A stretch of 35,118 nucleotides of DNA from a virus: the IMG/VR virus record IMGVR_UViG_3300046170_000436, positions 1 to 35,118 of that record; one strand, 5' to 3'. Below, piece after piece: positions 30,009-34,459 of this stretch. The notes under the pieces are model-generated. The model worked only from the letters and a program-made list of their open reading frames with translations, was not told the origin of the DNA and did not search any database. Position numbers and translations under genes: made by a program. Within the stretch, counting starts at the first letter, position 1; each line of letters opens with the position of its first letter.

Positions 30009-30177
30009 CGTCGTCCTCAAAAACTTCGTCATAATCTAATATGTAGTTGGAAGCAGGATCATCAAAATTTTCTTGCTTGGTCGTGTATACATCCACATCA
30101 GAGTATACCTCAGACTCTAGAGCATCAACCAGTAGTTTTAGATTCTTTACTATCAGTTTTAGTTTATCTCTTTCCAT
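30001..30177 (-). CDS. Small acidic cyanophage protein
   Basis: This gene encodes 58 residues: a basic N-terminal helix (MERDKLKLIVKNLKLLVDAL), then ESEVYSDVDVYTTKQENFDD and an acidic end (YDEVFEDDDG). I recall similar small proteins in cyanomyoviruses, unnamed. The ATG directly follows the T run of a terminator-like hairpin (30202-30178), and a sigma70-type promoter overlaps that hairpin. There is no Shine-Dalgarno. It heads the thyX transcript and overlaps the next ATG. Confidence 0.72.
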   Translation of the reverse strand: MERDKLKLIVKNLKLLVDALESEVYSDVDVYTTKQENFDDPASNYILDYDEVFEDDDG

Positions 30178-30202
30178 AAAAAATGGGAGGTTTCCCTCCC
30201 AT
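30178..30202 (-). terminator. Rho-independent terminator abutting the next ATG
   Basis: The minus strand reads ATGGGAGG GAAA CCTCCCAT, an 8-bp perfect stem with a tetraloop, followed by a run of T and then the ATG at 30177. It lies 27 bases after the DUF4278 stop. It should end transcripts from the riboswitch-controlled unit. Confidence 0.88.
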
Positions 30203-30229
30203 CATAACACTATTTAATCGGTTTGACAA
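30201..30229 (-). promoter_or_regulatory. Sigma70-type promoter overlapping the terminator
   Basis: TTGTCA (30229-30224), a 17-base spacer and TATGAT (30206-30201) each match the consensus at five of six positions. The predicted start, about seven bases on, falls inside the hairpin loop, so transcripts from here lack half the stem and should escape termination. Confidence 0.62.
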
Positions 30230-33567: not shown

Positions 33568-34209
33568 TTTACAACTCCTTTCCAATCGTTTTCAAAAATT
33601 TCCATACCTTTGTCTGTAAGAATATGATCATACATTTGATCTAAAACTTTAGGTGGCATCGTACAGATCTGTGCTCCATTATACCATGACCTGATAGCAC
33701 GTTGAACATTGCGGATTGATGCAGACAGAACCTGTGTTCTAATTCCTATGAATACGATAGAGCTCAGAGATAGATCTGACAACCTCTAGACCTGCTACTG
33801 ACTGGTCGTCTAAGCGTCCTACAAAGGGAGAAACATATGTTGCCCCCGCCTTTGCTGCCAGAACCGCCTGAGCGGCACAGAAGATAAGTGTGACGTTAAC
33901 CTTGATGCCTTGTTCAGAGAGACGCTTGCATACAATCAAACCTTCGCGTGTGCATGGAACCTTTACGGTACATACACTACCAAACTTTTCATACAAACGA
34001 ATACCTTCATCGTACATATCAAGGTCACTACCCATCACTTCCATACTGATGTCCTGAACACCAATATCTTTAATCTCTTGATATACATCCTCAGGATTAC
34101 GACCACTCTTTAAGATGAGTGATGGGTTGGTTGTGACACCATCAACTAGTCCAGTACTAAAATATTTACGAATAACTTCTGTGTCTGCTGTATCTAAAAA
34201 AATTCTCAT
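33564..34209 (-). CDS. talC: Transaldolase TalC, frame broken once
   Basis: The N-terminal frame has MRIFLDTADTEVIRKYFSTG, GVTTNPSLILKSG, VCTVKVPCT with the Schiff-base lysine, and YVSPFVGRLDD. After one extra base near 33747 the next frame continues GIRTQVLSASIRNVQRAIRS and NGAQICTMPPKVLDQMYDH. Removing it gives 214 residues, the TalC/FSA-type length. Cyanophage TalC pushes host carbon from the Calvin cycle into the pentose phosphate pathway for NADPH and ribose. The ATG lies right after a T run with no Shine-Dalgarno, under a promoter overlapping a terminator. Confidence 0.93.
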
Positions 34210-34233
34210 AAAAAAAGAGGTCCGTAGACCCCT
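34210..34233 (-). terminator. Rho-independent terminator abutting the talC ATG
   Basis: The minus strand reads AGGGGTC TACG GACCTCT followed by a T run and the talC ATG. The 7-bp stem has one G-U pair and a UACG tetraloop. It should stop transcripts from the DoxX-containing unit upstream. Confidence 0.85.
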
Positions 34234-34262
34234 AGTATATCAATCTTTATCTTGTTTGTAAA
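34234..34262 (-). promoter_or_regulatory. Sigma70-type promoter for talC, next to the terminator
   Basis: TTTACA (34262-34257), a 17-base spacer and TATACT (34239-34234) match the consensus at five of six positions each. The expected start lies inside the hairpin just downstream, so talC transcripts would lack the 5' arm of the stem and read through. Confidence 0.65.
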
Positions 34263-34267
34263 GGTCC

Positions 34268-34459
34268 TCAAGTCCGTTCTCTGCTGAGATCAATATACAT
34301 CACTTCTTCACCTGCTTCAGGTGCTTCAGGATGCTTTGGTTTGGGAGGTTTACTCATCTCTATATTAATAGATTGAATGTTACTCCACATCATTGCAAAT
34401 GCAGCGCCACCAATGGCAGCAAAGCATACAAAATAGAAAAAGACTTCAAAGTTATTCAT
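34268..34459 (-). CDS. Small membrane protein
   Basis: This gene encodes 63 residues. One membrane helix (FEVFFYFVCFAAIGGAAFAM) is followed by MWSNIQSINIEMSKPPKPKH, a Pro/Lys linker, and EEVMYIDLSRERT. I recall close relatives in many cyanomyoviruses, uncharacterised. The ATG overlaps the upstream stop (ATGA). It ends just before the talC promoter and terminator. Likely inserted in the host inner or thylakoid membrane. Confidence 0.75.
   Translation of the reverse strand: MNNFEVFFYFVCFAAIGGAAFAMMWSNIQSINIEMSKPPKPKHPEAPEAGEEVMYIDLSRERT

Follow-up and report, generated by a model that had tools for sequence, protein, structure and literature searches.

How is a gene expressed when a terminator ends at its start codon and its own promoter lies over that terminator? 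The question is raised by talC in the DNA studied here (the window), a 35,118-base stretch of viral sequence that resembles marine T4-like cyanophages. We consider it probable that the two signals constitute a single overlapping composite promoter-terminator that insulates the downstream gene.

Signals at the talC junction

All features of the junction lie on the minus strand of the window. The first part of talC, a transaldolase-like gene (PF00923), spans 33739-34209; its frame is broken near 33760, within 33739-33782, and the remainder continues in another frame to 33564. Upstream is a small gene of the T4-GC 988 family that, as read in the contig, occupies 34268-34459 and, through an extra G near 34273, stops early compared to L009 and L010. 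There is also an apparent split phoH gene at 28905-28154. The talC frame break, the extra G and the split phoH could reflect either wrong bases in the contig or genuine frameshifts. DoxX (35101-34703, PF07681), mentioned in the initial annotation, is not the direct neighbour of talC; two small genes separate them.

The predicted promoter consists of a -35 element, TTTACA (34262-34257), a 17-base spacer and a -10 element, TATACT (34239-34234). Its -35 is an imperfect match (five of six bases), and a TG located one base 5' of TATACT creates an extended -10, TG-A-TATACT (34242-34234). Immediately downstream, AGGGGTC and GACCTCT form a 7-bp stem closed by a C(UACG)G tetraloop (34233-34216), and a tract of seven T (34216-34210) follows whose last base adjoins the talC ATG (34209-34207). 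This is the architecture expected of an intrinsic terminator, a G+C-rich stem with a U-run directly after it. The segment 34239-34210 folds with a predicted energy of -10.8 kcal/mol (shuffle p 0.003). The predicted transcription start, 7 nt past the -10, is position 34227, which is the final base of the hairpin's 5' arm, and the nearest A is 34225 in the hairpin loop. The terminator abutting the ATG, the promoter just upstream of it and the predicted start inside the hairpin all agree with the initial annotation. The talC AUG itself lies outside the 7-bp stem; it is unpaired in the centroid structure and weakly paired in one longer-range fold.

The initial annotation also pointed to the missing Shine-Dalgarno sequence. 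None is present at talC, but this is ordinary in these phages and not a special feature of the gene, as matches of at least 4 nt precede only 3/19, 34/121 and 47/144 of the long open reading frames in these genomes. A simple promoter scan of the region yields 59 sites where 55 are expected, which is no excess over shuffled sequences, while terminator-like sites are enriched in the same scan (26 versus 10.6 expected). No Rfam family matches the talC junction, even when the threshold is relaxed. A terminator serving the opposite strand was considered and rejected, since on the plus strand the repeat is not followed by a T-run and is not approached by any gene.

Predicted fates of read-through and promoter-born RNA

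The proposed mechanism would distinguish RNAs by where they begin. Polymerases arriving from the upstream block of photosynthesis and small genes would transcribe the whole inverted repeat, and the resulting hairpin would halt the read-through RNA at the T-run or, where a T-run is lacking, leave a stem that ends directly at the start codon. Polymerases recruited by the sigma70-type promoter would instead start inside the repeat and make RNA without most of the 5' arm. Such an RNA would form no hairpin, would pass the T-run and would be translated from a leader of 15-21 nt without a Shine-Dalgarno sequence. We infer the start site, termination efficiency, promoter strength and the effect of the hairpin on translation from sequence. 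In folding predictions at 25 C, read-through leaders mostly reach -5 to -17 kcal/mol, with a few decayed ones near zero, whereas the energies of leaders that begin at the predicted +1 lie between 0 and -3 kcal/mol.

The initial annotation suggested comparing the junction across cyanophages, and the comparison gives a divided answer. The TTTACA...TGATATA promoter is found in 49 of 111 distinct talC upstream sequences (51 by a looser rule) and the element is absent from 60 of the 111, about half of those sampled. Among 31 distinct talC cores that have the promoter, about 19, including that of S-SM2, lack the T-run, although the hairpin is often kept. Several T-less relatives have a strong stem that ends at the ATG, for example the L014 type, with a 9-bp stem of -13.7 kcal/mol (shuffle p 0.003); in others the stem is weak or decayed. 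Because so many relatives lack the T-run, termination is not the conserved function at talC. That part of the original proposal is not supported as it was worded, whereas its distinction between hairpinned read-through RNA and promoter-born RNA without the 5' arm is supported by the leader folds and by covariation (see below). The common property at talC is, as far as folding predicts, that read-through RNA carries a hairpin at the start codon and promoter-born RNA does not, and termination is a stronger form of this effect.

These observations leave a possible, though rather doubtful, alternative in which the start-codon hairpin acts mainly on translation and the T-run is an addition in some lineages. 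The T-less stems flush with the ATG, such as that of L014, favour this explanation. A review of phage T4 describes equal logic for the genes e, soc, 49 and I-TevI, where a late promoter placed over the 5' strand of a start-codon hairpin leaves early read-through RNA silent (PMC3014915). The cyanophage element resembles these cases in that, judged by sequence and folding, its promoter lies over the 5' arm and RNA initiated locally lacks the hairpin. In addition, lysozyme-like and cell-wall hydrolase genes are found behind cyanophage copies of the element, and T4 guards its lysozyme gene e. Against the alternative, strong T-runs are present in the window's own element and in most elements outside talC, so that the hairpin is usually also a predicted terminator, unlike those of T4. 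T4 hairpins hide a Shine-Dalgarno sequence, and the 3' arm at talC contains none to hide. The T4 promoters are of the late TATAAATA type; this motif does not occur on the minus strand of 34280-34190, and the TTTACA-N17-TATACT promoter of talC is of sigma70 type.

Recurrence, covariation and codon conservation

The overlapping arrangement was sought around 217 hairpin and T-run terminators (216 of them testable) in the window and thirteen complete cyanomyovirus genomes, with promoters defined by at least 10 of 12 matches and scored at each offset from the terminator. Eighteen promoters place their -10 at the 5' end of the hairpin (offsets -7 to +6), and none of the 217 terminators has one at offsets +7 to +27. 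When the 50 nt upstream are shuffled, 0.47 promoters on average abut a hairpin (maximum 4 in 200 shuffles), compared to 12 of 216 in the real sequences. Because this joint geometry exceeds that of the shuffles, the talC arrangement reflects more than chance. A second overlapping form has a -35 TTGACA within the hairpin loop and uses the T-run as its spacer, with peak offsets of 34-41. Composites of this kind, with the -10 right after the T-run, are seen at S-SM2 167141, Bellamy 184218, P-SSM4 40536 and S-T4 61095, among others.

Such a pattern of offsets bears on the simpler idea that an ordinary terminator and an ordinary talC promoter overlap through genome compactness alone. Compactness is general among phage genomes, and promoterless terminators end the same upstream gene in some relatives (L102, L153). 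However, promoters cluster at the hairpin edge, or have their -35 in the loop, and hardly any occur elsewhere; those far enough upstream to be terminated themselves are rare. We therefore regard this explanation as unlikely.

Counted as independent lineages, the recurrent sites number about four or five. One is located behind the GC 988 gene and another behind psbD (S-PM2, S-RSM4, Syn9 at 168349, and S-SCSM1). A third, in SynMITS9220M01 and S-SCSM1, follows a gene whose C-terminus we take to be PstS-like. Another lies between an upstream gene and one that encodes a lysozyme in S-SM2 (PF18013) and a cell-wall hydrolase in Bellamy (PF07486), and a further one precedes a gene encoding a 58-residue protein that begins MERDKLK (the window, S-SM2 and Bellamy). 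In the window, this second copy (30182-30229, minus strand) comprises TTGTCA-N17-TATGAT, a hairpin at 30203-30182 and a T-run, followed by the ATG at 30177. At most recurrent sites the ATG lies 3-7 nt past the stem. In S-ShM2, Syn9 and S-PM2, the ATG that follows the T-run is also the annotated start. The arrangement is not specific to talC, since genes for lysozyme, a cell-wall hydrolase, glutaredoxin and an oxygenase, as well as purC, are also preceded by it. Elements directly 5' of lysozyme-like or cell-wall hydrolase genes are located at S-SM2 168134 and at about 171836 in SynMITS9220M01 and 185088 in Bellamy.

Comparison of talC relatives supports covariation in the hairpin. Across 28 alignable relatives, the six inner stem pairs are kept in 147 of 168 cells, whereas 2000 trials with shuffled partners average 133 and never exceed 146, a control that ignores the relatedness of the sequences. 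Exchanges between GC and AT, GC and TA, and AT and TA pairs all occur, and the stems of the window, L042 and L223 retain pairing with quite different sequences. It is very improbable, in view of these data, that the palindrome is instead a DNA operator at which a repressor or activator covers the -10 and start site. An inverted repeat between the -10 and the start is in the usual operator position, and one talC group conserves a GTA loop. However, the stem sequence is wholly different between lineages while pairing is kept, and 16 of the 147 paired cells are G-U, which pair only in RNA.

Evidence for the promoter comes from codon usage. In relatives, the upstream gene ends with the TGA of the extended -10 as its stop codon, and the -35 falls within the 3' end of this gene, so that a coding constraint is conceivable. 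The codons that contain TTTACA, CTT-TAC (Leu-Tyr), are present in 46 of 46 distinct GC 988 copies with a -10 behind them and in one of eight without (Fisher p 4.5e-8), a comparison that leaves out loci fetched by the promoter pattern. Three residues upstream in the same gene, a control leucine uses five different codons. Because CTT-TAC is fixed only when the -10 follows, coding constraint is rejected, and this synonymous conservation of the -35 supports a real talC promoter. A chance promoter match with its -35 conserved as Leu-Tyr coding, which the regional scan and the position of TTTACA inside the upstream gene might seem to favour, is barely credible, being contradicted by the codon data and opposed by several 12/12 promoters at the equivalent position in other genomes.

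Gene exchange and related phage elements

The putative composite promoter-terminator recurs at gene-swap junctions. Similarity of about 80-84% to ACG-2014a and S-MbCM100 runs through the block of DoxX, the small genes and the GC 988 gene as far as the element; past it lies purC in those two genomes and talC in the window. S-ShM2 has an almost identical element followed by a 2OG-Fe(II) oxygenase gene, and in SynMITS9220M01 the GC 988 gene and element precede a gene for a product of 92 aa. Four different genes follow psbD and the same arrangement. Since the upstream block is conserved to the element and the downstream genes differ, the element stays with the upstream gene, a pattern that suggests recombination at the element. 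Its location at the 3' end of the upstream gene is such that downstream genes could be exchanged behind it, each keeping control of its own.

A broader suggestion, which we make more tentatively, is that a compact start-site-selective gate serves cyanomyoviruses as their standard socket following psbD, pstS and further cargo genes, with T-less gates acting on translation. The socket would accommodate two geometries, one with the -10 at the 5' arm and one with the -35 in the loop. If this is true, new metabolic or lysis genes would plug in already insulated from strong upstream transcription. The composite element proposed for talC would provide a concrete rule for how swapped metabolic genes such as talC are controlled separately from the heavily transcribed photosynthesis block, as well as a searchable signature for cyanophage gene-exchange points. 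It would also offer a testable bridge between two T4-type devices, the start-codon hairpins and the PeSL (promoter early stem-loop) cassettes.

PeSL cassettes of T4-type phages were reportedly described by Arbiol et al. in 2010 and Comeau et al. in 2014. The talC element resembles a PeSL in that one small intergenic cassette contains both a strong sigma70-type promoter and a terminator stem-loop, and in marking junctions behind which genes are swapped (talC, purC, the oxygenase and 92-residue genes, and the four behind psbD). The two differ in geometry. In RB49 the promoter comes after the terminator without overlap; its -10 ends 65-69 nt past the hairpin start at 9 of 40 terminators, and the overlapping form occurs at one of 40. 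In the present element, the -10 directly adjoins the 5' arm, the predicted start is in the hairpin and the hairpin touches the ATG. The same scan of T4 finds none of the overlapping form. Thus, the talC element would work like both PeSLs and T4 e-type hairpins, and it matches the tested geometry of neither.

Passages in two earlier papers cite PeSLs as composite promoter-terminators linked to modular exchange in T4-type phages (PMC4503421, PMC5931544), and one of them judges PeSLs to be sparse in the S-PM2 region studied (PMC4503421). BPROM and TransTerm predictions have been reported near host-like genes of cyanophages, pstS among them, where the relevant passages treat promoters and terminators as separate signals and describe no overlapping composite (PMC3037559). 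Our literature search for papers on cyanophage transcription start sites found none.

At S-PM2 136627 (plus strand), a promoter and terminator occur ten bases past the psbA stop codon, ahead of the gene for the homing endonuclease F-CphI; they lie within the stretch assigned to the annotated antisense RNA 'Cyanophage Functional RNA 1'. On the minus strand of the window, a sub-threshold match to the Glutamine-II riboswitch is present at 30665-30611 (24.7 bits compared to a gathering score of 33; E 0.0064). A strong predicted promoter, TTGACT-N17-TATAAT (30700-30672), lies directly 5' of this match, and its -10 is contained in the loop of an inverted repeat, AGGTCT-ATAATA-AGACCT (30683-30665).
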